A DNA stretch of 64,000 nucleotides. It comes from an uncultured Spirochaetota bacterium. Lineage in GTDB: Bacteria; Spirochaetota; UBA4802; UBA5550. Both the position numbers and the translations under genes were made by a program. A model generated the notes under the pieces. It saw only the letters and a list, made by a program, of their open reading frames with translations. It did not search any database and was not told the DNA's origin. The DNA is taken from NCBI GenBank assembly GCA_937872225.1, contig CALMRZ010000016.1, positions 62,001 to 126,000 of the forward strand, read 5' to 3'. Below are positions 16,238 through 36,329 of the stretch, in pieces (position 1 is the first letter of the stretch; every line of letters starts with the position of its first letter).

Positions 16238-18337
16238 TTATTCGGCGATCGGGAAGGTTATGGTCCAGGATGTCCCGCCGGTCCTGCTGACGGTGGAGGT
16301 CCCGTGGATCTGTTTTATCAGTACGTTGACCAGCTGAAGTCCCAGGGATGTTGTGTTCTCGATATCTATTGTATCGGGGATGCCGATGCCATTGTCGGTG
16401 ACCATAAGGGTAATATCATCGGTGCCGCTGCGCCGCAGCGATATGGTTATTGCATTGCCTTCGCCTCCATCGGGGAAGGCGTATTTCAGGGCATTGGTGA
16501 TCAGTTCGTTGACGATCAGGCCGCAGGGGATCGCATGGTCGATCCCGAGGTGTATATCGTCGGCTTCAATGTTCAATTGCGGGCTGTTAAGGGTGGTCGT
16601 GTAGCTCCCGTGCAGTTCTTCGGCGATCGTCTTCAGGTATGAAGTAAAATCGATTTTTGCTATGTCCTCGGAGCGGTAGAGCTTTTCATGGACAAGGGCC
16701 ATGGCCCTGATGCGGTTTGTTGAATCGTGGAACATCTTCAGCAGGGCGGCGTCCTTTATGTTGTTGGACTGAAGATTGATGAGGCTGATAATGATCTGGA
16801 AGTTGTTTTTAACCCGGTGATGAATTTCCTTCAGGAGCACCTCCTTTTCCCTGAGGGATGATTTTATCTGTTCTTCCGCCTTCTTCCGTTCGGTGATGTC
16901 CAGGATTATTGCGTTATAGCCGAGCAGGGTATTCCTGAACCGGTACGATGTGGGCGTTGAGTACATGTGAACCACGGTGCCGTCCTTGTGTATGACGCGG
17001 AATTCAATTTCAAGCCTGTCACGCGATTCCCTGATGCTGCTTAGAAAGCTGTCGAGAATGCGTTCACGGTCATCAGGATGGATGAAATCAATAAACTGTT
17101 TTCCCAACAATTCATCATTCCGGTATCCAACCATTCCGCACAACGCATCATTTACGAAGGAGAATTCTCCTTTGGGGCTGATCGTCGCTATGCCGATAAG
17201 GGTCTTTTCGACCAGGCCGCGATATTTTTCTTCAGAGAGCTCCATGAGTTCCTGGGCGCGCTTGCGCTCGGTAACGTCGCGGATGGTCGCCTGGAGAAAA
17301 GACCTGCCGCCTGCCACGCATTTTGAAAGGAGCATCGTGCCGGGGAATTCATTGCCGTCGAGGCGCCTGAACTGCCATTCGAAAAAGCAGCCTCCTTCCG
17401 CCAGGGCTTGCGCGGCCATCCGCTCGAATTTTTCGCCTGAGCCTTCGCGGTCAGGCTGGGTGCCGGGTGAGATGTCGCCGACAGCAAGGCAGGAGTGTTC
17501 ACGGGCGCCGCCTGCTACCCGGAACATGTCGTCGAATGTCCTGTTGGCCGTCGTAATGTTCCACGCCGGAGGCTCTATGGCTATTATTGCGTCCCGGGAA
17601 AAATCAAACAGTATGCGGTAGCGCTCCTCGCTTTCATGGAGCGCGTTCTCGGCGCGCCGCCGCTCGGCTATTTCTGTTTCAAGTTCCTGGTTCGTCTCGG
17701 TCAACTCTGCGCTGTAGGCTTCCAGCTCCGCCGCTGCTGACCGGGAGCGATTGAGGGCCACGCGGTACTGGCTGACCAGGAACCAGAGAAGCGCGGCAAT
17801 GGCGGTGTAAGAAATGGCCATAATGACTACCCGGTTCGCGAAGTGGCTTTCCGGGGTCCTGATTTGCCGGATGAGGCCCTGGATCTCTGCCAGCCCTATC
17901 GCGGTGAAAACAAGGGCGCTGAGGATTACGACAATCCACTGGGCCCGCGGTCCCTGCAGTATGGCGGTCAGGACAATGGAAAGGGCATAGAGTATCATGG
18001 CCGGCGCCCCCGGACCCCCAATGATATTGCCGTATACGGCAATGATGAAAACAAAGACGGGCGGCAGATGTCCGGCCGCCTTCCAGTAGCCTTTATCGGC
18101 GAGCTTCCATCCGCTGAAAAAAAGCAATGTTATAATAACCATTATTATAAGCGTGTCGGGTGGAATGAAGCTCAACATCCAGCCGATGAAAAACACAATA
18201 GTGAACAGGAGAGCGGTGAATCCCATAAGAAGGGAGCTGACCTTGGTCATGTATTCCCGGAGGGCTTCATCGGGATTCAATGCCCGGGGGGCTGTTGCAT
18301 CATTCCAGAGTTTATTTATGGCATGGTCTTTCATCAT
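16238..18337 (-). CDS. Membrane PAS-PAS sensor histidine kinase (HisKA_2 type)
   Basis: A sensor kinase of ~699 residues. The first ~190 residues hold five or six membrane helices, followed by a short coiled coil (RSRSAAAELEAYSAELTETN) and two PAS domains (RYRILFDFSRDAIIAI and KYRGLVEKTLIGIATI). The phospho-acceptor box is LLKEIHHRVKNNFQ, the HisKA_2 form. The ATPase domain has VNELITNALKYAF, DNGIGIP and SLGLQLV. The start at 18337 (MMKDHAIN) is preferred on content; an ATG at 18409 in frame adds 24 low-complexity residues, and neither has a good ribosome site. No response regulator is adjacent. The next gene upstream is a frameshifted relative with the same C-terminal architecture. Confidence 0.82.
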   Translation of the reverse strand: MMKDHAINKLWNDATAPRALNPDEALREYMTKVSSLLMGFTALLFTIVFFIGWMLSFIPPDTLIIMVIITLLFFSGWKLADKGYWKAAGHLPPVFVFIIAVYGNIIGGPGAPAMILYALSIVLTAILQGPRAQWIVVILSALVFTAIGLAEIQGLIRQIRTPESHFANRVVIMAISYTAIAALLWFLVSQYRVALNRSRSAAAELEAYSAELTETNQELETEIAERRRAENALHESEERYRILFDFSRDAIIAIEPPAWNITTANRTFDDMFRVAGGAREHSCLAVGDISPGTQPDREGSGEKFERMAAQALAEGGCFFEWQFRRLDGNEFPGTMLLSKCVAGGRSFLQATIRDVTERKRAQELMELSEEKYRGLVEKTLIGIATISPKGEFSFVNDALCGMVGYRNDELLGKQFIDFIHPDDRERILDSFLSSIRESRDRLEIEFRVIHKDGTVVHMYSTPTSYRFRNTLLGYNAIILDITERKKAEEQIKSSLREKEVLLKEIHHRVKNNFQIIISLINLQSNNIKDAALLKMFHDSTNRIRAMALVHEKLYRSEDIAKIDFTSYLKTIAEELHGSYTTTLNSPQLNIEADDIHLGIDHAIPCGLIVNELITNALKYAFPDGGEGNAITISLRRSGTDDITLMVTDNGIGIPDTIDIENTTSLGLQLVNVLIKQIHGTSTVSRTGGTSWTITFPIAE

Positions 18338-18469
18338 AATACTGATATGAAAAACGGGTGAACCAGTATCGTGATCCCCAAAGAAGAACACGTTGTATGA
18401 TGCAGTCATCGAAAAACATTAGTCAAGTAAATAATAAGATGCCGGTGGTTTCAGGCGTCCGGCAGCGCT

Positions 18470-20148
18470 TCAATCCGCCGCGAAGGTTTTGGGGGCGGCG
18501 AAAGTTATGGTCCATGCCGTGCCGCCCTCGCGGTCAATCCGGTACCGGCCGCCGATCTGTTCGACCAGCACGTGGACGAGCTGCAGTCCCAGCGTCGATA
18601 TGCCCTTCGGATCCGGGGTTTCGGCCATACCGACGCCGTTGTCCCGGATCATCAGGGTGACGGTTCCGTCGTTCTCCTGCCGCAGCGAGATCAGTATTTC
18701 GGCGTCGGCAGTACTGTCCGGAAAAGCATATTTCAGCGTGTTGGTAATCAGCTCGTTCACGATCAGTCCGCAGGGGATCGCCTGGTCCAACCCGAGATGG
18801 ATGATTTCCGCTTCGATGCGCAAACGGGGTCTCCCGTGGTGGATCGAGTTGTTGCTGATCAGGTCCTCGGTTATCGTTGTGATGTATGATGTGAAATCGA
18901 TTTTCCCGATATCTTCGGATTGATAGAGTTTCTCGTGCACGAGGGCCATGGCCCTGATGCGGTTCATTGAATCGTTGAAGATCCTCAGCAGGTCCCGGTC
19001 CTTGATGCCGCTGGTCTGCAGGCTCAGGAGGCTGATGATGACCTGCATGTTGTTTTTAACGCGGTGGTGGATCTCCTTCAGCAATATCTCTTTTTCATTC
19101 AGGGAGGCCCTGATCTGTTCTTCGGCCCGTTTTCTCTCCGTGACATCGCGCATGGTCACCTGGATCAGTGTCCTGGCGCCCAGTTCGGATTTTGACAGCA
19201 GCACCGTTGCCGGAAATTCCTCCCCGTCAGCGCGCCGGTGCTGAAACTCGTAAAAACACCATCCGTCGGCCAGGGCCTTCTCGATCATCCTCAGTGCCAT
19301 GTCGCGGGACTTCTCACCGTTGGGCTGTGTTTCCGGCGCCAGGTCCCAGGGCCCGGTGATGGGGATCCTGAGGCCGGCAGGGTTTATTCTGAACATTTCA
19401 AAGGCGGCTTTATTGATGTCGATATACGTCCATGTCGGCGCTTCGGTGATGATAATCGCGTCGCGGGAGTTTTCAAACAGAGTCCGGTACCGCTCCTCGC
19501 TTTCGCGGAGCGCTTCTTCCGCGTGGGTCCTTTCGCTGATCTCCCTGTTGGCCCGGTCCAGGGCCCTGCGGTTGATGGCAAAAATGCTGAAAGCGGTAAT
19601 GGTCATGAATATGAGGGCGATGGTATTGTCAGCGGTATAATCTATCAGCGAATTGCGGGGGATGTTGAACTGCTCCCCGAAAAAAACATGAACAGGTAGA
19701 GCATGGCCAGGTTGATACCGCCGTAGACTATGATGGCTGTTCCGTTCCGCGCCACAGCCAGGGGCGTCAGGGTAAGGATGCCGAAAATAAACGCGATGGT
19801 GTCCAGGCGTGAAACCACGAAAGAACGGTCTTCTATCATGACGGTCCATGCCGTCATGAGGAGCAGAACCAGTATGACATGGGCCGACGCGGTAAAATAT
19901 CCCCTGACAAGCAGCACCAGGATCGCGATGAACAAGCCCAAGGTGATGATCTGGGGCATGAGGATGGCGAAGTCAATTCTGTACCCCAGGACCGGGTTTT
20001 GAAGATGCAGGTATGTGGTGTAGGAAATGGTGACCGGCAGGATGACCAGGATAATCAGGCAGAGGAAAAAAAAGAACCTGGCCTTCATCTGGATCACGAT
20101 GTCGGAGTTTTCGTATTTACGCAGCGCTCTTTCAAGGATATGTGGCAT
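18470..20148 (-). pseudogene. PAS/HisKA_2 sensor kinase, frameshifted at a T7 run
   Basis: Two overlapping frames together make one kinase. The N-terminal part (20148 down to ~19685) is a membrane domain of five helices that ends properly in GGINLAMLYLFMFF. The C-terminal part continues in another frame as FGEQFNIPRNSLIDY, one more helix, a PAS domain, LLKEIHHRVKNNMQV and an intact ATPase domain. The join falls exactly on a run of seven T on the coding strand (A7 at 19680-19686); one extra T would restore a single protein of about 560 residues. Both halves look well conserved, so the break is recent, a slippage site or an assembly error. It is paralogous to the kinase at 16.2-18.3 kb. Confidence 0.75.
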
Positions 20149-24285: not shown

Positions 24286-24330
24286 TTGACAACTATATAT
24301 AATCTATATATATATAAAATATATAATTAA
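24286..24330 (+). promoter_or_regulatory. Candidate padR-cluster promoter and AT-rich palindromes
   Basis: TTGACA (24286-24291) is followed by 17 bases and TATATA (24309-24314), about 48 bases before the PadR start. A stretch of overlapping TATATA palindromes spans 24294-24330. Such symmetric repeats over a promoter are a plausible operator for the PadR protein itself; autoregulation is typical of that family. The assignment is by eye only. Confidence 0.5.
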
Positions 24331-24361: not shown

Positions 24362-24913
24362 ATGTCAATAAAATTCGCTATCTTGGGCCTGTTAAACTAC
24401 ACGGATATGCACGGCTACCGCATCAAGGAGCATATTGAGAAGAATTTCGGGCACATGTGGTCGATCAATTTCGGCCAGATCTATCCGAATCTCAGGGACC
24501 TTGAACAAGACGGATTGATCAGAATGATCGAACTGTCGCCGTCGGATGACGGTGGACCCCATAAAAAGCTGTATTCAATAACTGAAAAAGGGGTGGAGGA
24601 GTTTTCGCGATGGCTGTCGGAGTCACCCGAACGGCCCATGCTGATCAGGGACCCGTTTCTGCTCAAGTTCACATTTTTCGGATTCGGCGACAGCGGGCGC
24701 GCCCTGGAGCTTATTGACGAACAGATCGCGCTGTACGAAGCGCAGCTGCACCGTCGGAAAAATAATTTCATGCGATGGGAGCACCAAGGAGTCTACGCGC
24801 GGCTCCTCGCCGAGCTCGGCATCACGCAGAACGAGATGTATCTTGAATGGCTGCGCAATGCCCGCTCCGAAATCGAGAAGAACGCGTCAGAGGCGGTCCT
24901 GGAAAAGGCGTAA
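24362..24913 (+). CDS. PadR-family transcriptional regulator
   Basis: A 183-residue PadR regulator of the two-domain kind. Residues 1-85 are the winged helix, with FAILGLLNYTDMHGYRIKEHI, FGQIYPNLRDLEQDGLI (recognition helix) and KKLYSITEKG (wing). Residues ~95-178 form a C-terminal helical dimerisation domain (PadR-type Vir_act_alpha_C). PadR proteins usually repress catabolic or efflux genes and are released by a small ligand, often aromatic or lipophilic. It is the first gene of a co-directional run to 36.3 kb, with 34 bases to the next start, and is the likely regulator of that cluster. Confidence 0.88.
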   Translation: MSIKFAILGLLNYTDMHGYRIKEHIEKNFGHMWSINFGQIYPNLRDLEQDGLIRMIELSPSDDGGPHKKLYSITEKGVEEFSRWLSESPERPMLIRDPFLLKFTFFGFGDSGRALELIDEQIALYEAQLHRRKNNFMRWEHQGVYARLLAELGITQNEMYLEWLRNARSEIEKNASEAVLEKA

Positions 24914-24947
24914 CTGGCTCACACTACCGAGTGGGAAAGGGGGGCGT

Positions 24948-25949
24948 ATGGAATTTACCGGAATTACCCTCGTCACCGGCGCTGCCGGATTCATGGGGAG
25001 CCACCTTGTGGAATATCTCGCGCGCAGGGGGGTCCGCGTCAGGGCCACGGCGCGGCCCCGGAAGGACACCTCCTTTTTTACACGTCTGGGCGTTGAATAC
25101 GTCGCGGCGGACCTGACAAAGCCTGAAACCCTGCCGCCCCTGTTCGAAGGGGGCGTTGACCGCATTTTCCATCTCGGCGCCATCTGCAATTTTTCCACGC
25201 CCTATGAGGCCCTCTATCCAACCAACGTGAAGGGCGTCGAGGAGATCACCGGCCTTGCCCTCAAGAACGGCGTCAGGCGGTATGTCCACGTGGGGTCCAC
25301 CAGCGTGTACGGCTACTACAAGGGAACGCCCTTCCGGGAGGATTCCCCGCGGGAGCCGCGGGATTCCTACGGCCGGAGCAAGCGGGACGGCGAGGACGTG
25401 GTGTGGCGCCGCATGCAGGAAGGGCTGCCGGCAATCATCACGCGGCCCTGCACCGTGTACGGCCCCCGGTGCAACGACGGGGCGGGGAAGGCCTTCTCGC
25501 GGCCGACCAGCATCACCGCCATACCCGGCAGCGGCGCCCAGCTCCTGTCCAACGTCCGCGCCGAGGATGTGGCCGCTGCGGTGGAGCATCTCTCCTACCT
25601 TGACTCGGCAGTGGGGCAGGCCTACAACCTCGCCGAAGACACCCATCCCTCCCTGGAAGAAGCCCTCATGCTCGCGTCCGAGGCGTTCGGCACGAAACCG
25701 CCGAAGCTGCACCTGCCCCTCTGGCTGGTGAAGGGAGTGGCCAGGATGGACGGCATAGTGTCTGCCCGCCGGGGCCGCATCCCGGACCTCGAGCTCGACG
25801 CGGTGCGCTACCTCTATGACGATTACATCGTCGACAACAGCAAACTGAAATCAACCGGATACCGCATGATATATCCTGAATTCAGGGGATCCATGAAACA
25901 GATAGCGGAATGGTACCGGGCGCAGGCGACCGGTACAAAAACAGCTTGA
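24948..25949 (+). CDS. NAD-dependent epimerase/dehydratase (extended SDR)
   Basis: A 333-residue extended SDR. TGAAGFMGSHL is the NAD-binding motif, with the acidic/basic switch region following beta 2 (RATARPRKD). The catalytic residues are Y141 and K145 in DSYGRSKRDG, preceded by VGSTSVYGYY. RPCTVYGPR is the substrate-binding region. The C-terminal third is longer than in plain reductases, as in 3-beta-hydroxysteroid-dehydrogenase-like or sugar epimerases. The start at 24948 follows an AAGGGGGGC site; the frame is open upstream but overlaps padR. It sits 17 bases before the SDR gene. Its substrate is unknown; context suggests a hydroxy/keto intermediate of the cluster's pathway. Confidence 0.82.
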   Translation: MEFTGITLVTGAAGFMGSHLVEYLARRGVRVRATARPRKDTSFFTRLGVEYVAADLTKPETLPPLFEGGVDRIFHLGAICNFSTPYEALYPTNVKGVEEITGLALKNGVRRYVHVGSTSVYGYYKGTPFREDSPREPRDSYGRSKRDGEDVVWRRMQEGLPAIITRPCTVYGPRCNDGAGKAFSRPTSITAIPGSGAQLLSNVRAEDVAAAVEHLSYLDSAVGQAYNLAEDTHPSLEEALMLASEAFGTKPPKLHLPLWLVKGVARMDGIVSARRGRIPDLELDAVRYLYDDYIVDNSKLKSTGYRMIYPEFRGSMKQIAEWYRAQATGTKTA

Positions 25950-25966
25950 TAACCGGGAGGTTTTGT

Positions 25967-26797
25967 ATGGGACAGGTCGTGGTCATAACCGGATGCGCTG
26001 ACGGCATGGGGCGCCACGTCGCGGCAATGCTGGCCGCGTCGGGCCATTCCATAGCGGGGTTCGATGTTGACGCCGACGGCATCGCTTCTTTAAAGAAGGA
26101 GCTTGCCCGGTTCGGCGGCGGGCATTTGCTCGAGGTCATGGATATAACCGACCGCAAGGGGATCGGGAAATTCCGGGACCGCGTCCTGGAAAAGTACGGC
26201 CACGTGGACACGGTGCTTTCCAACGTGGGGATCGGGTTCTTCAGCCCCTTCGAGGAGGCCGATCTCGACAAGGCGCTCAAGTGCCTTGAGATCAATGTCA
26301 TCGGCGCCTCGGCGATTTTCCAGGCCTTCATCCCCTCCATGCGGGAGCGCCGCTCCGGAAAGCTCATCGCCATGTCGTCCCTGGTGGGGCGCATCCCCTT
26401 TCCCTTTGAATCGATATACTCCGCGAGCAAGTTCGCCATCACCGGGCTCGTGCTTTCCCTCAAGTACGAGGTCGAGCCCTTCGGCATCAAGGTGGCGCTG
26501 ATTGAGCCGGCGCAGGTGTCCACCACCTTCGCGGCCAAGATCCACGTGCTGCCGCCGGAAGGATCGGCCTACCGTGACCGGGCGCGGCGGTTCATTGAGC
26601 GCGACGACGAGCTCATCAAGACAGCGCCGACGCCCCCCGACGCGGCCAGGAAAATCGTGAAGGTGATCGAGGCGAAAAAGCCACGCATATTCAACCAGGT
26701 CGACTTCATGAGCAGCTTTTTCCTGTGGCTCAACCAGTTCCTTCCCCGTTCGCTCCGTGACGCCATACTGGTGAACCACATGCATATTAAAGTTTAA
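25967..26797 (+). CDS. Short-chain dehydrogenase/reductase
   Basis: A 276-residue classical SDR. TGCADGMGRHVA is the cofactor motif, SNVG near residue 88 matches NNAG, the catalytic serine is in AMSSLVGR, and Y151/K155 lie in YSASKFAITG. It should interconvert an alcohol and a ketone with NAD(P). The start at 25967 has GGGAGG six bases upstream. The C-terminal ~40 residues (FFLWLNQFLPRSLRD) are hydrophobic and may dock to a membrane or a lipid-like substrate. It follows the epimerase gene closely and is 50 bases before the glycyl-radical enzyme. Confidence 0.85.
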   Translation: MGQVVVITGCADGMGRHVAAMLAASGHSIAGFDVDADGIASLKKELARFGGGHLLEVMDITDRKGIGKFRDRVLEKYGHVDTVLSNVGIGFFSPFEEADLDKALKCLEINVIGASAIFQAFIPSMRERRSGKLIAMSSLVGRIPFPFESIYSASKFAITGLVLSLKYEVEPFGIKVALIEPAQVSTTFAAKIHVLPPEGSAYRDRARRFIERDDELIKTAPTPPDAARKIVKVIEAKKPRIFNQVDFMSSFFLWLNQFLPRSLRDAILVNHMHIKV

Positions 26798-26846
26798 GGG
26801 TGCATCCCAAAACTTGGGACGCATTCCGGAAAACAGGAGGTTCCCC

Positions 26847-29234
26847 ATGAGCACGCAGCACGCCCTGAGCCGGCCCCCGACGCGGTCCCGCGTCGACACC
26901 CTCCGCTGGAGGATAATAGAAGCGCCGCAGGAGGTGTGCGTCGAGCGGGCCCGCTATCTCACGGAGGCGATGAAACAGCACTGGGACCAACATCCCCTGA
27001 CCAGGATGAGCCTGGCCTTCGAGCACATTCTGAAGAACATCAGCGTCATCATACGCGACGACGAGGTCATCGTGGGATGCCGCACCTCCAAGCTCAAGGG
27101 GGCGCCCCTGTTCCCGGAAAACAAGTCCCTCTGGATAGAGGGGGACCTGGAGAACTTCGACGTCCGCGCCCTCCAGCGGGCGCTGATCACCGGGGAAGAG
27201 AAGAAAGAGCTCGCGGAGGAGATGCTTCCCTTCTGGAAAGGCAGGACCGTGGAAGACCGGATGAAGGAGCTGATGCCGGCGGACATTCTGGAGGACATGG
27301 ACAAGTACATCTTCACCATGATGCTCGAGATAACCTACGGGATCGGCCATTTCACCATGGCCCATGACCGCGTCCTGGCCCGCGGCCTCCGCGGCGTCAT
27401 CGAGGACGCCGAGGGTACCATGGCGGCGCTTTCGCCCGCTGACAGGGAGGGCGAAAAGGGCCTCTTCTATGACGCGGTGATACGCTCCTGCCGGGCGGTC
27501 ATATCCTTCGCCCGGCGCTACGCGGACCTGGCCCTGGCCATGGCTGAAAAGGAGCGGGACAGGGCCCGGGCCGCGGAGCTTATGGAGGTCGCCCGCGTGT
27601 GCGGCCGCGTGCCCGAGTACCCGGCCGAAACCCTCCACGAGGCGGTCCAGAGCGTCTATTTCATCCACCTTGTCGCCCAGATCGAGTCCGGAGGGAACTC
27701 CATATCCCTGGGACGCATCGACCAGATACTCTTCCCCTATTACAAAAAGGACGTTGACGCGAACCGGGGGAGCGCGGACAGGGCCCGGGAGCTCGTGGCC
27801 ATGCTCTTCATAAAGACCAACGAGATCTGGAACGTCCTGGAGGAGGCCTTCATCCCCGGCGGCGAGGGCACCGAGGGCAAGACCACGCAGAACGTCACCG
27901 TGGGCGGGGTCGGGCCCGACGGCCGCGACGCCACCAACGACATGAGCTATATCGCCCTGGACGCCTACGCTGACGTGCGGACCGTGCAGCCCAATTTCGG
28001 CGTCCGGATTTCGCCCGACTGTCCCGCGGAGCTGTTGAACCGGGCCGTGGACTATGACCGGGACGGCGTGCTGATGCACCTGTTCAACGATGAGGCCATC
28101 ATCCGGTCCCTGGTAAAGGCGGGCCATTCGATCGAGGACGCGCGGAATTACGGCATGGTGGGCTGCCTGGAGCCGAACGCCCAGGGCAGGACCTTCGGGT
28201 CCACCTTCGCAGTGCAGTTCAACGGCATCAAGTGCGTCGAGCTGGCCCTGGCCAACGGGATTGACAACATCTTCGGTTACCCCAGCGGGATAGAGACAGG
28301 AGACCCTGCCGGGTTCACGAGCTTCGAAGACGTGTGGGCCGCCTATGACGGCCAGGTGAGGCATTTCATCGGGCAGATGGTGCGGGGCATGGAGGTGCTC
28401 GACCGCGTGATATCGGAAACCGTTCCTTCTCCCTTCGCTTCGGCCATGGTCGACGGCTGTCTCCAAAAGGGAAAGGACCTCACTGCCGGGGGAGCCATCT
28501 ACAACTCCACGGGGGTCCAGTTCATGGGCTTTGCCAACGTGGTGGACAGCCTGTACGCGGTGAAGAAGGCGGTCTTCGAGGAGAAGCGGTTCACCATGGG
28601 CGAGCTGGCCGAGTGGCTGTCGCAGGACTGGCAGGACGCGGAGGAGAAGCGCGTCTACTTGCGCAACAAGATCCCGAAATACGGGAATGACAACGACGAG
28701 GTTGACGCCATGGCTGTTCGGGTTGTCGACCATTACTGCGATATTCTCGCTGGTTATCGGAATTTCCGGGGCGGATTTTTCTGGCCGGGAATATTCTCGG
28801 TCGGTTTTCACATAACCATGGGAGCCTTCACGGCGGCAACGCCCGACGGGCGCTTCGCCGGCGATGTCCTGGGAAACGGCGTTACCCCCACGACCGGGAA
28901 CGCCATGTCCGGGCCGACGGCGATCATGAACTCCGTGACCAAACTCCCCATCACGCGGGTATACAACGGCGCCAACCTGAACATGCGCTTCCAGGGAAAA
29001 AAGATCAGCACCGCCAACCTGGTGTCGCTGATCAGGGGCTACTTCAAGCGGGGCGGCACCCAGGTGCAGTTCAACATGGTGGACTCGGCCGTGCTCAGGG
29101 ACGCGCAGGCCCATCCGGAAAAGCACCGGGACCTCTTCGTGCGGGTGAGCGGCTATTCCGCGGAATTCACCGGGCTGAGCGAGATCGCCCAGGAAGAGAT
29201 CATAAGCAGGACTGAGTTCGAAATGCGGCCGTGA
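26847..29234 (+). CDS. Glycyl-radical enzyme (PflD/dehydratase-lyase clade)
   Basis: A 795-residue glycyl-radical enzyme. The radical site is G769 in VRVSGYSAEF, and the thiyl cysteine is C440 in MVGCLEPN. The Cys-X-Glu arrangement (E442) is the one found in dehydratases, decarboxylases and lyases (glycerol dehydratase, CutC, hydroxyproline dehydratase, hydroxyphenylacetate decarboxylase), not in pyruvate formate-lyase, which has adjacent cysteines. It initiates C-O, C-N or C-C cleavage by hydrogen abstraction. The ATG at 26847 has AGGAGG six bases upstream. No radical-SAM activase gene is next to it or elsewhere in the window, which is unusual for this family. The substrate is unknown. Confidence 0.93.
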   Translation: MSTQHALSRPPTRSRVDTLRWRIIEAPQEVCVERARYLTEAMKQHWDQHPLTRMSLAFEHILKNISVIIRDDEVIVGCRTSKLKGAPLFPENKSLWIEGDLENFDVRALQRALITGEEKKELAEEMLPFWKGRTVEDRMKELMPADILEDMDKYIFTMMLEITYGIGHFTMAHDRVLARGLRGVIEDAEGTMAALSPADREGEKGLFYDAVIRSCRAVISFARRYADLALAMAEKERDRARAAELMEVARVCGRVPEYPAETLHEAVQSVYFIHLVAQIESGGNSISLGRIDQILFPYYKKDVDANRGSADRARELVAMLFIKTNEIWNVLEEAFIPGGEGTEGKTTQNVTVGGVGPDGRDATNDMSYIALDAYADVRTVQPNFGVRISPDCPAELLNRAVDYDRDGVLMHLFNDEAIIRSLVKAGHSIEDARNYGMVGCLEPNAQGRTFGSTFAVQFNGIKCVELALANGIDNIFGYPSGIETGDPAGFTSFEDVWAAYDGQVRHFIGQMVRGMEVLDRVISETVPSPFASAMVDGCLQKGKDLTAGGAIYNSTGVQFMGFANVVDSLYAVKKAVFEEKRFTMGELAEWLSQDWQDAEEKRVYLRNKIPKYGNDNDEVDAMAVRVVDHYCDILAGYRNFRGGFFWPGIFSVGFHITMGAFTAATPDGRFAGDVLGNGVTPTTGNAMSGPTAIMNSVTKLPITRVYNGANLNMRFQGKKISTANLVSLIRGYFKRGGTQVQFNMVDSAVLRDAQAHPEKHRDLFVRVSGYSAEFTGLSEIAQEEIISRTEFEMRP

Positions 29235-29295
29235 GCCGCATCTTCGGACCGGGCTCTGCCTGCGGTTTTCACATGACACATCAAGGGGGACGGGC

Positions 29296-30231
29296 ATGGG
29301 AAAGATAATGACCACCGCCGATGCCGTGAAGAAGTTCGTCGGGGACGGCGACTTCCTGTTCATCGGGGGTTATATCTGCAGGCCGCCCTTCGCGGCAATC
29401 CACGAGATCATCAGGCAGAAGAAGAAAGACCTTACCATCACGCGAAGCAACGCCGCCGACGATTTCGACATGCTCATCGGCGCCGGTTGCGTGAAGCGCT
29501 TCATCGCCACCTTCATTTCCCTGGGGCTGTACGGCCTGGCGCGGTGCTACCGGCGGTCGATAGAGAAGGGGATCCCCCGCAAGATCGAGCTGGAAGAATA
29601 CACGAACCTTTCACTTCCCCTCATGCTGATGGCCGGCGCCATGGGGATGCCCTTCGTGCCGGTAAAGGACATGGTGGGGACCGACCTGATGAACATACAG
29701 TCCTTCATGGGCGACAACAAGTACAAGATGATTGAGTCCCCCTTTGACGGGACCCCGGTCATGGTGGCCCCGGCCCTCAGGCCTGACACCGCCATCATCC
29801 ACGTGCAGCAGTCGGACGAGGACGGGAACGCCCAGATGTGGGGGATCGGCGGCGACTGCAAGTGGGGGGCCAACGCCGCGAAAAAGGTGATCGTGAGCTG
29901 CGAACGCGTCGTGAGCCGGGAGACCGTGGGCAAGGACCCCTCCCGCACCATCGTACCTTCGTTCAAGGTCGTGGCCGTAACCGAGGAGCCCTTCGGCGCC
30001 CACCCCGGGTACACGCCGGGCTTTTATGACGTGGACCTGCAGTACGGGAACCTCTACAAGGAGGCCTCCAATACCGTCGAGGGCTTTCAGGCTTTCCTGG
30101 ACGAATGGGTCTTCGGCGTCAAGGACCGCACCGAGTATATCCAGCACTACATCCAGAAATTCGGGTACGCGCAGTACAAGCGCCTGCAGGCGAAATTCGA
30201 TTACGGGTATACCGTATCGTATGCCTACTGA
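29296..30231 (+). CDS. Class I CoA-transferase, alpha subunit (GctA-like)
   Basis: A 311-residue alpha subunit of a family I CoA-transferase. The glycine-rich CoA-binding region is near the N-terminus (GDFLFIGGYICRPPFAAIHEI). VGTDLM, PDTAIIHVQQSDEDGNAQ and GAHPGYTPGFYDVD are typical of the GctA/IpdA branch (Pfam CoA_trans). It pairs with the next gene; together they move CoA between acyl-CoA and a free acid. Similar alpha/beta pairs include glutaconate CoA-transferase and the steroid-ring hydrolase IpdAB. AAGGGGGA precedes the ATG. The beta-subunit active site (next entry) favours transferase rather than hydrolase activity. Confidence 0.87.
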   Translation: MGKIMTTADAVKKFVGDGDFLFIGGYICRPPFAAIHEIIRQKKKDLTITRSNAADDFDMLIGAGCVKRFIATFISLGLYGLARCYRRSIEKGIPRKIELEEYTNLSLPLMLMAGAMGMPFVPVKDMVGTDLMNIQSFMGDNKYKMIESPFDGTPVMVAPALRPDTAIIHVQQSDEDGNAQMWGIGGDCKWGANAAKKVIVSCERVVSRETVGKDPSRTIVPSFKVVAVTEEPFGAHPGYTPGFYDVDLQYGNLYKEASNTVEGFQAFLDEWVFGVKDRTEYIQHYIQKFGYAQYKRLQAKFDYGYTVSYAY

Positions 30232-30245
30232 CCGGGAGGTGGGAA

Positions 30246-31046
30246 ATGAGCAATCATCCAGATGATTATATCAAGCCGGAATTGATGGCCTGCTGCGGCG
30301 CCCGCGAAATCAGGGACGGCGACATCGTCGTGGTGGGGACCGGGTTCCCCACCATGTCGGCCAATATCGCGCGGTACACCCACGCGCCCCGGGCCATGCT
30401 GATGCAGGAATCGGGCGTCTTCGACGCGCGGCCGGCGCGGCCGGCCCTTTCCGTGGGCGATCCCTGCCTGAACCCGGGCGCTGCCATGATCGGCGGCCTG
30501 GTGGAGATCATGGGAATTTTTTTACAAGGCGGATGGGTCGACGTGGGGTTCCTCGCCGGGAGCCAGATCGACAGGTTCGGCAACATCAATACCACCGTCA
30601 TCGGGCCGTACGAAAGCCCGAAGAGCCGCCTGCCCGGGTCCGGCGGGGCAAACCCGATCGGCGCCCTTGCGAAGCGCACCCTCATCATCGCCCTGCACAA
30701 CACCCGGAGCCTGGCGGAAAAAGTGGATTTCATTACCACCCCGGGGTACCTCGACGGCCCGGGAGCGCGGGAGAAGTGGGGGCTGCCGCCCGGCACCGGC
30801 CCCCAGGTGATGATAACCAACAAGGCGGTCATGCGCTTCGACAAGGACACGAAGGAGGCGTACCTGGAGAGCTATCATCCCGGGTCCTCCGTGGACGAGG
30901 TGGTGAAGCTCACGCCCTGGAAGCTAAAGGTGAGCGACGACGTGCACGAGACCGAGCCCCCGCGGGAGGAGGAGATCCGCGCCCTGCGGGAGGTCCTCGA
31001 CCCTCATCGCATGATACGGATTTACGAGAAACGCGGGTACGTGTAA
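30246..31046 (+). CDS. Class I CoA-transferase, beta subunit (GctB-like)
   Basis: A 266-residue beta subunit. E55 in MQESGVFDAR sits where glutaconate CoA-transferase GctB has its catalytic Glu54, the residue that forms the glutamyl-CoA thioester. FLAGSQIDRFGNINTTVIG and GSGGANPIGALAKRT are family signatures. The start at 30246 follows GGGAGGTGGG. It begins 14 bases after the alpha subunit, as expected for a 1:1 complex. In IpdB the equivalent glutamate is reported absent, so its presence here argues for acid activation by CoA transfer. The acid is probably a product of the cluster's upstream steps. Confidence 0.87.
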   Translation: MSNHPDDYIKPELMACCGAREIRDGDIVVVGTGFPTMSANIARYTHAPRAMLMQESGVFDARPARPALSVGDPCLNPGAAMIGGLVEIMGIFLQGGWVDVGFLAGSQIDRFGNINTTVIGPYESPKSRLPGSGGANPIGALAKRTLIIALHNTRSLAEKVDFITTPGYLDGPGAREKWGLPPGTGPQVMITNKAVMRFDKDTKEAYLESYHPGSSVDEVVKLTPWKLKVSDDVHETEPPREEEIRALREVLDPHRMIRIYEKRGYV

Positions 31047-31058
31047 AGGAGGCGGGTC

Positions 31059-32426
31059 ATGGAATACACCAAGGAACTGGTCAAATTCTGCTCTGACATA
31101 TCCTTTGAAAAATTGCCCGGGGACGTCAGGCACAAGGCGAAGCTCTGCGTCCTCGATTACATCGCCAACATTTACGGGTCCCTGGAACTCGACGCGGTGC
31201 GGTCAGTCGTGGATTTCGTGCGCTCCCTCGGCGGCCCGGAAGCGGCGACCGCCCTCGGGTGCGGGTTCCGGACCGGTCTGCAGAACGCGGCCTTCATCAA
31301 CGGCACCACGGCGGAGGCGATCGAGGCGCAGGACGGCCTCAGGTTCGGCGGCAACCACCCGGTATCGGCGGTGATCCCGGCCGTATTCGCCGCGGCGGAA
31401 TCCATGGGCCGGTCGGGCGCCCGCGTGATCGAGGCCATCGTGGCCGGGTACGAGGCGGCGGGACGTTCGGCAGCGGCGGTGCACCCCTTTCATACGCTTT
31501 CCGGGTTTCTCCCCACCGGAACCTGCGGAACCCTGGGGACCGCGGTGGCCGTCTCCAAGCTGATGGGCCATGGGTTTGAGAAGATGCTGAACGCGATCGG
31601 GATATCCGGTTACCTGCTGCCGCTTTCCATGGCGGAGCAGCTGATGGGCGGGTATACCGTGAAGATAGTGCAGGGAGGTCAGGCGGCGAGCGCCGGTATC
31701 ATGGCCGCCGGGCTGGCTGACCGCGGAATAACCGGCAGCCCCTTTGTCCTGGAAGGCACGGCGCTGAAGGGCGGGTTCACCCAGATCACGGTGAAGCAGG
31801 AGCCGAAGCCGGAGCGCATAACCGATAAGCTGGGCGAGCATTTTTCCATCATGGATATCTATTTCAAGCCGTACACCGCCTGCCGGCACACCCATGGCGC
31901 GGCCCAGGCGATGCTGGAGCTGGTAAAGGAAAAGAACGTCAAGGCGGCGGATATAGAATCCATCGCGGTATTCACCTACGCCATAGCCGCTCTTGCCGTG
32001 GGAAAGGGCGTCCCTGATGGCGGGTCCTTCGTGTCAGCTCAGTTTTCCATCCCCTACGTGGTGGCCGCCTGCCTCCTCGACGGCACGCTGGGGCCGGGGC
32101 AGCTCACGGAGCGGAGGCTCGCCGATCCTGCCGTGATAGCGCTCTCCAGGAAGGTGACGGTGCAGCCGGACGACGCCCTGAACAAGCTGTACCCGGACAA
32201 GACCGCGAGCCGGATCGAGGTCCTCATGAAGAACGGGGAGCGCCTGGTGAAGCAGGTTGACATTCCCAAGGGGGACCCCCGCGATCCGATGGAGGCCGGC
32301 GACATCTCGGAGAAGGTGCGCTTTTTCGCCGGGAGTCGCGACCGGAAAAAGATCGACCGGATCATCGACGCGGTCATGGACCTGGATAAAGCGAAAAACA
32401 TCAGGGACCTGGCTTCGCTGATATAA
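31059..32426 (+). CDS. MmgE/PrpD-family protein
   Basis: A 455-residue MmgE/PrpD protein. The N-terminal helical domain contains RHKAKLCVLDYIANIYGS and FINGTTAEAIEAQDG, and GTCGTLGTAVAVSKLMG lies near residue 155. IYFKPYTACRHTHGAAQAM near residue 265 matches the conserved active-site loop. The family includes 2-methylcitrate dehydratase, cis-aconitate decarboxylase and iminodisuccinate epimerase, so it probably acts on a di- or tricarboxylic acid, by dehydration, decarboxylation or epimerisation. A strong AAAGGAGG precedes the ATG. It is 12 bases after the CoA-transferase and may supply or consume its acid. A palindromic repeat follows the stop. Confidence 0.85.
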   Translation: MEYTKELVKFCSDISFEKLPGDVRHKAKLCVLDYIANIYGSLELDAVRSVVDFVRSLGGPEAATALGCGFRTGLQNAAFINGTTAEAIEAQDGLRFGGNHPVSAVIPAVFAAAESMGRSGARVIEAIVAGYEAAGRSAAAVHPFHTLSGFLPTGTCGTLGTAVAVSKLMGHGFEKMLNAIGISGYLLPLSMAEQLMGGYTVKIVQGGQAASAGIMAAGLADRGITGSPFVLEGTALKGGFTQITVKQEPKPERITDKLGEHFSIMDIYFKPYTACRHTHGAAQAMLELVKEKNVKAADIESIAVFTYAIAALAVGKGVPDGGSFVSAQFSIPYVVAACLLDGTLGPGQLTERRLADPAVIALSRKVTVQPDDALNKLYPDKTASRIEVLMKNGERLVKQVDIPKGDPRDPMEAGDISEKVRFFAGSRDRKKIDRIIDAVMDLDKAKNIRDLASLI

Positions 32427-32431
32427 TTGGA

Positions 32432-32515
32432 AGTAGTCCCCCTAAATCCCCCGGAGGGGGACTTGTGTGATTTGAATGAACTACAAAAGCCCCTCTCGGG
32501 GGGTGGGGGGCTGAG
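32432..32515. repeat. Short palindromic intergenic repeat (REP/MITE-like)
   Basis: Two hairpins in tandem: AGTCCCCC (32435-32442) with GGGGGACT (32456-32463), and an imperfect one from AGCCCCTC to GGGGGGCT (32488-32512). G/C-tract palindromes of this sort occur as dispersed intergenic elements in many genomes. It splits the catabolic cluster into two transcriptional halves or acts as an internal attenuator. Confidence 0.6.
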
Positions 32516-32582
32516 ACAAGCATCAATATCGTTGGGTTATGCGATACATTAAATTTATTTTGAATCGGAAAAAGGAACGGGA

Positions 32583-33749
32583 ATGGATTTCACATTGAGC
32601 GAAGAACAGCAGATGCTGGTCGATACCATCAGAAAGATGGGGCAGAGGGACAAGTTCAAGGAGCTGGCGAAGCATATCGACGAGACGGGGGAATTCCCCT
32701 TTGAGCTTATCGGCAAATACGGCGATATGGGACTCCTGGGGATGACCCTTTCGACGGAGCACGGCGGCGGCGGCCAGCCCGCCATGAACGCGGTCCTCTG
32801 CATCGAGGAACTGGCTAAATTCAGCCCCATGATCGCTGCGCCGGTGTTTGAGTCGAACGTGGGGCCGGTGCGGGTCATCGACCTCTTCGGCACCGAGGAG
32901 CAGAAGAAGACCATCGTCCCGGGGGTGTGCCGGGGTGAATACAGCGTGTCGGTCTGCATGACCGAACCGGAGGCCGGGTCCGACCTCACGGCCCTCACGA
33001 CCCGCGCTGTCGAGGACGGCGACTCGTACATCCTTAACGGCAAAAAGTGCTTCATCACCGGCGGCGGCCACGCCAGCCACTATATGGTCTACACCCGCTT
33101 CGGTGATACGAAAGGATATAAGGGCATCGGCGGACTCCTGGTGGAAAAAGGAACACCGGGCTTCACCTTCGGCAAGCAGGAAACATTCATGGGCCTCAGG
33201 GGCATGCCGTCGTGCGACCTGTACTTCGACGACGTCAGGGTCCCGAAGAAAAACCTGGTGATACCGCCGGGCGAGTTCAACAAGCTCATGTCCACCTTCG
33301 ATATCGAGCGGTGCGGCAACGCGGCCATGTGCCTGGGTGTGGCGGGCGGCGCTTTCGAGGAAGCGAAGGCTTATGCCATGGAGCGCAAGGCCTTCGGCAG
33401 GCCCATATGCGAGTTTCAGGCCGTGCAGTTCATGATGGTGGACATGGCGACCAGGCTGGACGCGGCGCGCCTCCTGGTGTACCGCGCCATAAGCGGAGCG
33501 GGCCGGGGCCTTCCCTCCATATACGAGGCCTCCATGGCCAAGGCGTACGCCAACGAGATGGCCGTGGACGTGACGAACCTGGCGATGCAGGTCTTCGGCG
33601 GATACGGCTACAGCCATGAATTTCCCATGGAGCGGATGTACCGCGACGCAAAGGCGTGGGGCGTCGCAGGGGGCACCATCCAGATGCTTAAAATCGGTAT
33701 CGCCGGCATGATCTTCGGCAGGCGCTTTGACCAGAGGAAAGGGCAGTAA
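32583..33749 (+). CDS. Acyl-CoA dehydrogenase with relocated catalytic base
   Basis: A 388-residue acyl-CoA dehydrogenase. CMTEPEAGSD, then YILNGKKCFITGG, and the C-terminal QVFGGYGYSHEFPMERMYRD with AK are standard FAD-binding motifs. At the place where MCAD-type enzymes have the catalytic Glu (YEGT) this protein has AGGT, with G363 instead of Glu. A glutamate is present at E242 in STFDIERC, which corresponds to the alternative base used by isovaleryl-CoA and long-chain dehydrogenases. It would form an alpha,beta double bond in a CoA ester and pass electrons to ETF; no etfAB is in the window. AAGGAAC precedes the ATG. Confidence 0.87.
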   Translation: MDFTLSEEQQMLVDTIRKMGQRDKFKELAKHIDETGEFPFELIGKYGDMGLLGMTLSTEHGGGGQPAMNAVLCIEELAKFSPMIAAPVFESNVGPVRVIDLFGTEEQKKTIVPGVCRGEYSVSVCMTEPEAGSDLTALTTRAVEDGDSYILNGKKCFITGGGHASHYMVYTRFGDTKGYKGIGGLLVEKGTPGFTFGKQETFMGLRGMPSCDLYFDDVRVPKKNLVIPPGEFNKLMSTFDIERCGNAAMCLGVAGGAFEEAKAYAMERKAFGRPICEFQAVQFMMVDMATRLDAARLLVYRAISGAGRGLPSIYEASMAKAYANEMAVDVTNLAMQVFGGYGYSHEFPMERMYRDAKAWGVAGGTIQMLKIGIAGMIFGRRFDQRKGQ

Positions 33750-33772
33750 CTTTAAACCAAGGGAGGATAAGC

Positions 33773-34210
33773 ATGAGCACATATTACAAGGACGCCGATG
33801 ACCTGTATAAAATTTACGGATATTTCCTGGAGCGCGTATTAAAGGACGAGAAAATCGGCACGAAAATGAGCAAGGCCGGCATCATAATTAAGTTCATATA
33901 CACTGATCCGGACGCGGAGATCACCATTGATCTGAAAAATCCTCCGGCAAAGGAAGGATACTACGGGACCTTCTACCTGGGCCCCTGCGACCTCAAGGAG
34001 GACGTGTGGTCAAAACAGCCTGCCGACCATTCGCACCGGTTCTGGCACGGCCTGGAAAACCCGATCGCCGGCGTCACCAAGGGCATCATCAAGCAGGGCG
34101 GGAAAGTGACCGCCATGCTGAAGCTTCTGCCGGTCATCAAGCCGGCCTTTAAGATGTATCCGATAGCCCTGAAGGAGATGGGGCTGGAGCACCTGATCGT
34201 TTCGAAATAG
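33773..34210 (+). CDS. SCP2-like sterol/lipid-binding protein
   Basis: A 145-residue protein resembling the SCP2 sterol-binding fold: an N-terminal helix pair, then beta strands (GIIIKFIYTDPDAEITIDLK and GYYGTFYLG) and hydrophobic C-terminal helices (MLKLLPVIKPAFKMYPIAL). Proteins of this fold hold long-chain or polycyclic hydrophobic ligands. GGGAGG lies seven bases before the ATG. It sits between the acyl-CoA dehydrogenase and the aldehyde oxidoreductase, suggesting that the pathway handles a hydrophobic CoA ester or aldehyde. The fold assignment is from sequence pattern only. Confidence 0.68.
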   Translation: MSTYYKDADDLYKIYGYFLERVLKDEKIGTKMSKAGIIIKFIYTDPDAEITIDLKNPPAKEGYYGTFYLGPCDLKEDVWSKQPADHSHRFWHGLENPIAGVTKGIIKQGGKVTAMLKLLPVIKPAFKMYPIALKEMGLEHLIVSK

Positions 34211-34233
34211 CACGATGGAAGCGGGGGTCCGAT

Positions 34234-36111
34234 ATGAACGGCAACACGGGGAACATTGCTGACATCGACTTGACTGCCGGCACGGTCACTGCGCTTCACC
34301 TGCCGGAGGAAACCTACCGCCGTTTCATCGGCGGCAGCGGCCTCGGGGCGAAGATATTCTGGGACCGCGCGGATTTCTCGGCCGACGCGCTTTCTCCCGA
34401 AGCGCTGTTCATCCTGATGAACGGCCCTCTGGCCGGCATACGGCTTTCCGGCGCGAGCAGGATGAGCGCCACGGCCCGATCCCCCCTGACCGGGGGCCTC
34501 GCCGAGTCCTCCTGCGGCGGGTATTTCGCGCCGGCCCTGAGGCAGGCCGGCTACGACGGCCTGGTCATTACGGGCAGGGCGGCACGACCGTCGGTCATCT
34601 GTATCGATAGGGATATAATCACGATTGAAGACGCCGCCGTGCTGTGGGGCAAAGGCATCGGGGAAAGCACGGCAGCGCTCCGTGACATGTGTGGCAAGAA
34701 ATCGACATCACTGGTCATCGGTCCGGCAGGCGAGAACCTGGTGCCCTTTGCCTGCGTCCTGAACGAGGCCCACCATGCCTTCGGCCGCTGCGGCATGGGC
34801 GCGGCCATGGGATCAAAAAACCTGAAGGCCATTGTAGTGAAAGATGCGAAGAGAGAGCTCTCGCTGGCCGACCCGGACCGGGTGAAGGCCCTGATCAAGG
34901 AGCTTACGCCGCGGATACGGGAACATCTCATATCCCAGGTGCTGCACGACTTCGGCTCTTCCGGCAACCTCGAGGGCCATATGTACAGCGGGGACGTGCC
35001 GGTGAAGAACTGGACGTCGAATTTTGACGAGGAGATGGGGAATGCCCTGACCGGGAGCACCCTGTCGGAGCGGTTTCTCAAGAAGACGGCGACCTGCGCC
35101 TACTGCGCCGTGGCGTGCAAGCGCATCGTGCAGGTAGACGAGGGACCCTTTGCCATCCCGGAAGGGCCGGGACCGGAATACGAGACCGTGGTCTCCTTCG
35201 GCAGCCTCCTGGGGACGTCGGACCTTGCGGCGGTGTGCAAGGCGGGAAGGGTGTGCAATGACCTGGGTATGGACACCATCAGCGCGGGCGCTACCATAGC
35301 GTGGGCCATGGAGGCGTACGAGCGGGGCGATCTCACCGATGAACATACCGGGGGCATGGCCCTCCGGTGGGGCGATATGGAACGCGTGGTGGACAGTATC
35401 CTGCCGATGATGTCGTCCCGGAGCGGGAAACTGGGCGAGCTCCTTTCAAAAGGAAGCGCCGGCGCCGCCCGCGCAATCGGCGGCAGCTCAATCGATTACA
35501 CGGCGCAGGGCAAGGGCCTGGAGGCCCCCATGCACGATCCCCGGGGCTGCCACGGCCACGCCCTGGCCTACGCGGTGAGTACCCGCGGGGCCTGCCATGT
35601 ACAGACGGCGATGCATTTCATGGAGACCGGCGCCTGCAACTACCCGGAGATCGGGTTCGAGTTCGATCTCGAAGCGCTCACCGGCGACAAAAAGCCGGAA
35701 ACCATGGTCCTGGCGGCCGCCATAGGCTGCATCGAGAACAGCGCCTGTCTGTGCCAGTACGCTGACCGTTCCTTGACCATGCAGGAAATCGCAGACCTCA
35801 TCAATGCCGCGGCCGGTTACGGATATGATCTGCGGGAGATGATGGACGCGGGAATGCGCGGGTATGACCTGAAGCGCTGTATCAATTACCGCCTGGGCTT
35901 TACGGCGGCGGATGACGCGCTGTCGCCGAGACTGCTCGAGCCGGCCCGTGACGGCGACACCGCCGGCATCGAGGTCCACTTCGAAGAAATGAAAAAGAAG
36001 TTTTACTGCCTGATGGAACTTGACCCGGTGAAGGGCGTGCCGTCGCGCCGCAGGCTTGTAGCCGAGGGGTTGTCGGAAGAGGCAGAGCGGATATGGCCGG
36101 GGACTTCATAA
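34234..36111 (+). CDS. Aldehyde ferredoxin oxidoreductase (W/Mo pterin enzyme)
   Basis: A 625-residue AOR-family enzyme. The N-terminal domain has RFIGGSGLGAKIFWD and RMSATARSPLTGG. The [4Fe-4S] ligands are C288, C291 and C295 (CAYCAVAC) and C505 (ENSACLCQ). RCGMGAAMGSKNLKAIVV is the pterin-binding region, and DPRGCHGHALAYAVSTRG is the second. It oxidises aldehydes to acids while reducing ferredoxin, or reduces acids in reverse, with a tungsten or molybdenum bis-pterin. Length is normal for the family. The acid formed could be handed to the CoA-transferase of the same cluster. Oxygen-sensitive enzymes such as this fit an anaerobic lifestyle. Confidence 0.92.
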   Translation: MNGNTGNIADIDLTAGTVTALHLPEETYRRFIGGSGLGAKIFWDRADFSADALSPEALFILMNGPLAGIRLSGASRMSATARSPLTGGLAESSCGGYFAPALRQAGYDGLVITGRAARPSVICIDRDIITIEDAAVLWGKGIGESTAALRDMCGKKSTSLVIGPAGENLVPFACVLNEAHHAFGRCGMGAAMGSKNLKAIVVKDAKRELSLADPDRVKALIKELTPRIREHLISQVLHDFGSSGNLEGHMYSGDVPVKNWTSNFDEEMGNALTGSTLSERFLKKTATCAYCAVACKRIVQVDEGPFAIPEGPGPEYETVVSFGSLLGTSDLAAVCKAGRVCNDLGMDTISAGATIAWAMEAYERGDLTDEHTGGMALRWGDMERVVDSILPMMSSRSGKLGELLSKGSAGAARAIGGSSIDYTAQGKGLEAPMHDPRGCHGHALAYAVSTRGACHVQTAMHFMETGACNYPEIGFEFDLEALTGDKKPETMVLAAAIGCIENSACLCQYADRSLTMQEIADLINAAAGYGYDLREMMDAGMRGYDLKRCINYRLGFTAADDALSPRLLEPARDGDTAGIEVHFEEMKKKFYCLMELDPVKGVPSRRRLVAEGLSEEAERIWPGTS

Positions 36112-36329
36112 CCATAGGGGTGGCCGGCAAGGGGCCGGTGAGGAAATATATCTCGCGGAACAAGGCGGTGGTTCCGAGCGGCTCCACGGTTTCGACGCTT
36201 ATAGCCGGCCTGCGCTTACCGGCAGAGCTTAGGGTGATATGCATGAGGGACGGCAAGCGGATGCCGCCGACAGCGAAGCTCAATGACGGCGACAGCGTCA
36301 TCATGATTTCCATGGTTGCCGGCGGTTGA
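36093..36329 (+). CDS. MoaD/ThiS-like sulfur-carrier protein
   Basis: A 78-residue ubiquitin-like protein. The pattern of beta-grasp strands and the C-terminal VAGG match MoaD/ThiS, where the terminal Gly-Gly is adenylated and thiocarboxylated. It overlaps the aldehyde oxidoreductase gene by 19 bases and so is translated with it. MoaD-like proteins beside AOR genes are thought to serve pterin-cofactor sulfuration for that enzyme. There is no MoaE or MoeB partner here, so it must use enzymes encoded elsewhere. A long basic loop (RDGKRMPPTAKLNDGD) precedes the last strand. Confidence 0.8.
   Translation: MAGDFITIGVAGKGPVRKYISRNKAVVPSGSTVSTLIAGLRLPAELRVICMRDGKRMPPTAKLNDGDSVIMISMVAGG

Follow-up and report, generated by a model that had tools for sequence, protein, structure and literature searches.

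We analysed a 64,000-nucleotide stretch of DNA (hereafter the window) from the 4.69-Mb draft genome of an uncultured bacterium whose relatives are Spirochaetota, and found that eleven intact, co-directional plus-strand genes filling positions 24362–36329 place a new clade of glycyl-radical enzymes (GREs) in a new operon context. In our reading, to which we give an even chance of being right, the operon is a PadR-repressed anaerobic catabolic unit for a bulky, hydrophobic, hydroxylated compound, which would undergo radical dehydration, conversion to an acid and then to a CoA ester, and alpha,beta-dehydrogenation. The gene families named in an earlier reading of the same letters (the original prediction) were confirmed, including the SCP2-like protein, for which the call proved right by fold. 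The operon and its promoter region comprise:

24286–24325, plus strand: putative promoter and PadR operator, with a TTGACA -35-like box (24286–24291) and overlapping TATATA-N7-TATATA palindromes (24294–24325)
24362–24913, plus strand: PadR-family regulator with a Vir_act_alpha_C domain (Pfam PF03551, 3e-17; PF10400, 2e-9)
24948–25949, plus strand: extended short-chain dehydrogenase/reductase (SDR), NAD-dependent epimerase/3beta-HSD-like, here called the epimerase (PF01370, 2e-33; PF01073, 2e-15)
25967–26797, plus strand: classical short-chain dehydrogenase, here called the SDR (PF00106, 1e-41)
26847–29234, plus strand: GRE of an uncharacterised clade (PF02901, PFL-like, 2e-195; PF01228, Gly_radical, 1.5e-26)
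29296–30231, plus strand: family I CoA-transferase subunit A (CTA), glutaconate-type (CoA_trans; 1POI_A, E 1e-54)
30246–31046, plus strand: family I CoA-transferase subunit B (CTB) with an ESG motif (CoA_trans; 1POI_B, E 9e-55)
31059–32426, plus strand: MmgE/PrpD-family enzyme (PF03972, 7e-56; PF19305, 5e-40)
32583–33749, plus strand: acyl-CoA dehydrogenase (ACD; Acyl-CoA_dh domains) with Glu242 and Gly363, its base placed as in long-chain acyl-CoA dehydrogenase (LCAD) and isovaleryl-CoA dehydrogenase (IVD)
33773–34210, plus strand: small SCP2-fold protein, possible hydrophobic-ligand carrier (AlphaFold model and Foldseek)
34234–36111, plus strand: aldehyde:ferredoxin oxidoreductase (AOR) of the W/Mo family (PF02730, 5e-71; PF01314, 5e-101; 1AOR, 4e-103)
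36093–36329, plus strand: ThiS/MoaD-like protein with a C-terminal Gly-Gly, overlapping the AOR gene (PF02597, 2e-6, 28.5 bits versus a cut-off of 22.5)

Translation of the epimerase (24948), SDR (25967), GRE (26847) and CTB (30246) probably begins downstream of the first start codon in each open frame; GRE residues are numbered here from 26814. No NCBIfam equivalog cut-off was reached by the epimerase. The operon has 61.4% G+C versus 55.7% in the rest of the window, and ranks with the richest stretches of its length there.

A single scan of genome contigs with the GRE yielded 63 loci. Those with more than 60% GRE identity belong to Spirochaetota, Syntrophales (Smithella among them), Desulfobacterota, Dehalococcoidia (with one operon copy on a contig of 2.2 Mb), Geothermincola-type actinobacteria (Geothermincola, Solincola), SAR324 and one bin labelled Fibrobacteres; the taxon labels of some bins may be wrong. 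The search for the same gene order in other anaerobes, which the original prediction had proposed, was successful at about 60 loci in several phyla, the recurring order being PadR, epimerase, SDR, GRE, CTA, CTB, PrpD, ACD, SCP2 and then often AOR. Where at least 3 kb of upstream sequence was available (36 loci), PadR preceded the epimerase in 30, and the epimerase and SDR were present in 34 and 35, respectively. With at least 8 kb downstream (33 loci), we counted CTA, CTB and PrpD in 28, ACD and SCP2 in 30 each, AOR in 16 and an aldehyde dehydrogenase (ALDH) in 6. The genes and their order persist from phylum to phylum, so the association goes far beyond chance. Part of the loci carry accessory genes encoding ALDH, a GRE activase, a major facilitator superfamily (MFS) carrier, an arylesterase/SMP-30-like protein, DUF362 or an Fe-alcohol dehydrogenase.

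Co-occurrence statistics were calculated for 247 Spirochaetota genomes, in which scores fall between orthologue and next paralogue from 911 to 605 bits for the GRE, from 281 to 87 for SCP2 and from 670 to 286 for PrpD. PrpD and SCP2 orthologues occupy an identical set of 14 genomes, 13 of which also encode the GRE, itself found in one more. All three occur together in 13 of the 15 genomes that have any of them (Fisher p 1e-19), and both exceptions are fragmented assemblies. The second half of the operon (32.5–36.3 kb) was not seen to be conserved on its own in these genomes.

Just 5' of the operon, two loci (L040:3-7160 and L041:1-5452) encode a double-cubane/HGD-D reductase, BadF-type ATPases, a CdhC-like protein and a MinD-like ATPase. 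We rejected these genes as part of the pathway, as they resemble a separate double-cubane/CODH-type cluster and occur at two loci only; the upstream genes of L073 were set aside as ordinary and unrelated.

The GRE itself carries the catalytic motif Cys451-Leu-Glu453 and an RVSGYSA loop with Gly780, and both Cys451 and Gly780 are invariant across 27 clade members. The clade is monophyletic (support 1.0) on a long stem, with 62–89% identity inside and about 41% or less to outside GREs. In a tree with characterised clades, as the original prediction had suggested building, it stands apart from glycerol dehydratase (GD), propanediol dehydratase (PD), 9RCO, HypD, Archaeoglobus PFL2 and 8ID1, and so outside every known clade compared. 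Among solved structures, GD (703 bits) and PD (661 bits) were closest, and the GRE remained below every NCBIfam dehydratase equivalog cut-off. We therefore rejected its assignment as GD/PD, CutC or sulfopropanediol dehydratase (below the NCBIfam cut-offs for each, and outside their branches where these were tested in the tree) and as trans-4-hydroxyproline dehydratase (548 bits versus the NF043068 cut-off of 1100, and a separate branch). At positions equivalent to the GD pocket, H179, N295, S296, T358, C451, E453, F465 and Q468 are invariant. The GD active-site set H164/H281/S282/C433/E435/D447 is kept in part: H164 and the Ser, Cys and Glu are retained, and H281 and D447 are replaced by Asn and Phe, which suggests a pocket less polar and differently shaped than that of GD.

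Within the GRE clade, Spirochaetota do not form one group. The GREs of the window and of a congener (G042) fall with those of Smithella, Syntrophaceae and others (support 100), and Spirochaetota monophyly was rejected (AU test, p 4e-48). The GRE has likely been transferred between phyla, in a direction that the tree leaves open. Two Desulfobacterota have a different second GRE (34–35% identity) just 5' of the operon (L061:4557-7001 and L062:3776-6292). A GRE-like gene of 31% identity on a 4-kb contig of Mycobacterium pinniadriaticum (L088), unexpected in this genus, is possibly a contamination.

Upstream of PadR, 29 of 35 loci have a TATATA-N7-TATATA palindrome (at least 11 of 12 positions matching) beside a TTGACA box, versus a mean of 0.39 of 35 loci in mononucleotide shuffles. 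The exact pattern is found at a single place in the source genome, and beyond such promoters there was a single extra match among the loci examined (L066). At L055 and L081 the palindrome precedes a transporter gene that itself lies 5' of PadR. The classical PadR operator ATGT-N8-ACAT was not enriched (7 of 35 loci versus 4.5 in shuffles). A reversed control pattern matches the source genome as often as the palindrome pattern because of the alternating TA run, and the exact half-site is therefore undefined. Since the palindrome marks the promoter of most copies and a single place in the source genome, PadR likely controls the operon through it, a link that we infer from sequence and that supports the predicted single PadR-controlled unit.

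How might these enzymes act together? The two SDR-type enzymes would set the oxidation state or stereochemistry of substrate hydroxyls, after which the GRE would abstract a hydrogen next to a hydroxyl and eliminate water to give an aldehyde. AOR, or ALDH in relatives, would oxidise this aldehyde to an acid, and the ThiS/MoaD-like protein may help to assemble the AOR cofactor. The best evidence for an aldehyde intermediate is that AOR and ALDH interchange at the same operon: the relatives' ALDH, of the phenylacetaldehyde/betaine-aldehyde type, replaces or accompanies AOR. The predicted route from a radical lyase or dehydratase through aldehyde to acid gains from this exchange and from the AOR gene in the operon, but neither enzyme is universal, AOR or ALDH being near the GRE at 19 of the 33 loci whose downstream sequence extends for 8 kb or more. 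The AOR cluster cysteines (Cys288/291/295/507) are invariant. Two AOR types (56–78% and 36–40% identity) occupy the same operon place in relatives, and a ThiS/MoaD-like protein ending in Gly-Gly follows AOR in the window and at L043, L046 and L118. The source genome further encodes a 1182-residue radical-SAM activase-GRE fusion directly 3' of a 797-residue AFOR gene (L119:2518-8572). This is a second AOR-GRE pairing within the source genome, and as such it also points to an aldehyde.

The acid would then be converted to its CoA ester by the glutaconate-type CoA-transferase. CTA and CTB align with glutaconate CoA-transferase (1POI) over nearly their full length, and the ESG motif with the catalytic Glu is kept in 42 of 42 CTB orthologues. 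An alpha,beta double bond would be introduced by ACD, in which Glu242 and Gly363 are invariant in 24 sequences; its J-K loop lacks the usual Glu (Gly363), and Glu242 takes the LCAD/IVD base position, one of the two known for such enzymes. Among the members compared in PMC11153573, a base at that position was found solely in LCAD and IVD, and the wide cavity of LCAD takes bulky acyl-CoAs. For the MmgE/PrpD enzyme, both the N- and C-terminal Pfam domains were found, and the NCBIfam equivalog cut-offs for 2-methylcitrate dehydratase were not reached; it may dehydrate or isomerise a carboxylate intermediate.

The SCP2-fold protein (145 residues) of the window matches no Pfam model, and one relative alone gave a weak Pfam SCP2 match. 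Its AlphaFold model (pLDDT 82) aligned in Foldseek with human SCP-2L and SCP2 proteins (probability 1.00, TM 0.58–0.72, E about 1e-3). The modelled fold makes it a possible carrier that would hold poorly soluble intermediates. Because of this fold and the LCAD/IVD-type base of ACD, the substrate is probably bulky and hydrophobic, in line with the original prediction, although a polar dicarboxylate stage would also fit the transferase and PrpD. Distantly related SCP2-fold domains occur elsewhere: in other Spirochaetota one is fused to the C-terminus of an Fe-alcohol dehydrogenase (L112:1656-3419 and L113:328-2100, detected by Pfam in L112 only), and another has an SCP2 domain at the N-terminal end of a protein that unites the alpha and beta parts of 2-oxoacid dehydrogenase E1 (L114:3574-6285). 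In a second cluster, the source genome has a distant SCP2 paralogue together with a DUF2148 ferredoxin, a CoA ligase, an acyl-CoA dehydrogenase, a thiolase-like protein and an SDR (L111:6900-14906).

Several observations weigh against this catabolic reading. Neither AOR nor ALDH was found nearby in 14 of the 33 loci that have 8 kb or more of downstream sequence, and none of the operon genes in the window encodes a GRE activase. The source genome has three activases, each adjoining one of its three other GREs, and we therefore assume activation in trans by an activase encoded elsewhere; in four relatives' loci an activase (TIGR02494) lies just 3' of the operon. Diol-dehydratase chemistry is not proven, since the GRE has Phe in place of GD Asp447, which contacts glycerol, and Asn in place of GD His281. 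The conserved His at GD position 164 is weak evidence, because it is common to nearly all GREs compared. PrpD-family enzymes are known for polycarboxylates; for such an enzyme and a glutaconate-type transferase, a polar dicarboxylate would be a better match than a greasy acid.

This last point leads to the most credible alternative, which we nevertheless consider rather unlikely: two pathways behind one promoter, with a core (epimerase, SDR, GRE, SCP2, AOR) producing an acid and inserted CTA, CTB, PrpD and ACD genes handling a di- or tricarboxylate that is separate or arises later, such as one resembling glutaconate or methylcitrate. CTA, CTB and PrpD are missing in 5 of the 33 loci with at least 8 kb downstream (L037, L058, L073, L079 and L093), where the GRE is followed by SCP2, so that the operon looks like a core with an insertable block, and the closeness of the transferase to glutaconate CoA-transferase and the polycarboxylate preference of PrpD enzymes point the same way. 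However, among the 247 Spirochaetota genomes PrpD and SCP2 orthologues are confined to exactly the same 14, of which 13 encode the GRE, and at L050 and L074 ACD alone directly follows the GRE. At L073 and L093 the block gives way to an AMP-forming CoA ligase with a second ACD (60% identity, same subfamily), which argues that at least the steps of CoA activation and dehydrogenation are part of one route, as predicted.

Cleavage of an alkylglycerol ether or glycol ether appears improbable to us. Here the GRE would dehydrate the free glycol end to form a 3-alkoxyaldehyde, and AOR would form the acid; CoA transfer and ACD would give a 3-alkoxyacrylyl-CoA, and its hydration a hemiacetal freeing a long-chain alcohol. 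A diol-dehydratase-like GRE with Phe replacing the glycerol-contacting Asp, the SCP2 fold and hosts named as sediment, sludge and groundwater anaerobes would suit such a scheme, but its chemistry is purely inferential, the operon has no ether-specific gene, it is not evident that a glutaconate-type transferase would suit a long alkoxy acid, and we found no paper tying a GRE to ether lipids. Still less probable is an AOR working in reverse, from acid to aldehyde with ferredoxin, in a biosynthetic or fermentative operon: AORs are reversible and the two SDRs could use an aldehyde or ketone, but NAD-type ALDHs replace AOR in relatives, and the CoA-transferase, ACD and relatives' MFS carrier (oxalate/bile-salt/lactate type) fit uptake and catabolism. 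That the GRE is a fumarate-adding X-succinate synthase with its usual downstream CoA-transferase and ACD, partners that such pathways do employ (PMC12583861), is very hard to reconcile with 703 bits to GD versus 348 to TutD and 341 to MasD, with the Cys-X-Glu motif and with an operon that holds no small subunits, thiolase or mutase set.

Returning to the anaerobic degradation of a hydroxylated hydrophobic compound, the predicted flow stands in part. CoA activation followed by an acyl-CoA dehydrogenase step is supported; for the substrate class, the exact order of steps and the role of PrpD, we infer rather than observe. A more specific version, which we put forward only tentatively, is an undescribed pathway that has passed by transfer between anaerobes of sediments and whose GRE, with a new function, would dehydrate a large hydrophobic polyol or ether (e.g. 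a hopanoid, steroid or glycerol-ether lipid) and pass its product to AOR, CoA transfer and an LCAD-like dehydrogenase.

Elsewhere in the window (16238–19849), two adjacent sensor-kinase-like proteins with similar C-terminal halves probably reflect a duplication.

In the open-access literature, which leaves most subscription papers outside, we found no publication that describes the operon or joins its genes, in agreement with the original prediction that no described pathway has this set. Papers on limonene and benzene were rejected as matches, as they concern other enzymes, and the naphthalene CoA-transferase ThnP belongs to another subgroup than the operon transferase. Much anaerobic carbon chemistry begins with a GRE, and every clade that was newly assigned has led to a pathway. 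The clade described here is sharply bounded and tied to a single conserved operon, present in anaerobes of sediment, groundwater and sludge that belong to several phyla; the identity of its substrate would show the anaerobic breakdown route of some recalcitrant hydrophobic compound.

Compared with known systems, the GRE shares Cys-X-Glu, His164, Ser282 and the Gly-radical loop with GD (1R8W/1R9D) and PD (5I2A), but differs from them in His281 to Asn, Tyr/Phe339 to Thr, Asp447 to Phe and Phe450 to Gln, and in its operon. The CoA-transferase resembles glutaconate CoA-transferase (1POI) in both subunits and the ESG motif, but in this operon it is not beside hydroxyglutaryl-CoA dehydratase genes. 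AOR matches tungsten AORs (1AOR and relatives) over its full length, with the cluster cysteines and a ThiS/MoaD-like partner, and differs in sitting with a GRE. Like human LCAD and IVD, ACD has its base Glu in 'FDxER' and a Gly at the usual Glu site, whereas overall it is closer to bacterial butyryl/caffeyl-CoA-type dehydrogenases. The limonenylsuccinate synthase operon (PMC12583861) likewise serves anaerobes for a hydrophobic substrate and combines a GRE with a CoA-transferase and an ACD; unlike the GRE described here, its GRE is a fumarate-adding enzyme of the benzylsuccinate/alkylsuccinate branch.

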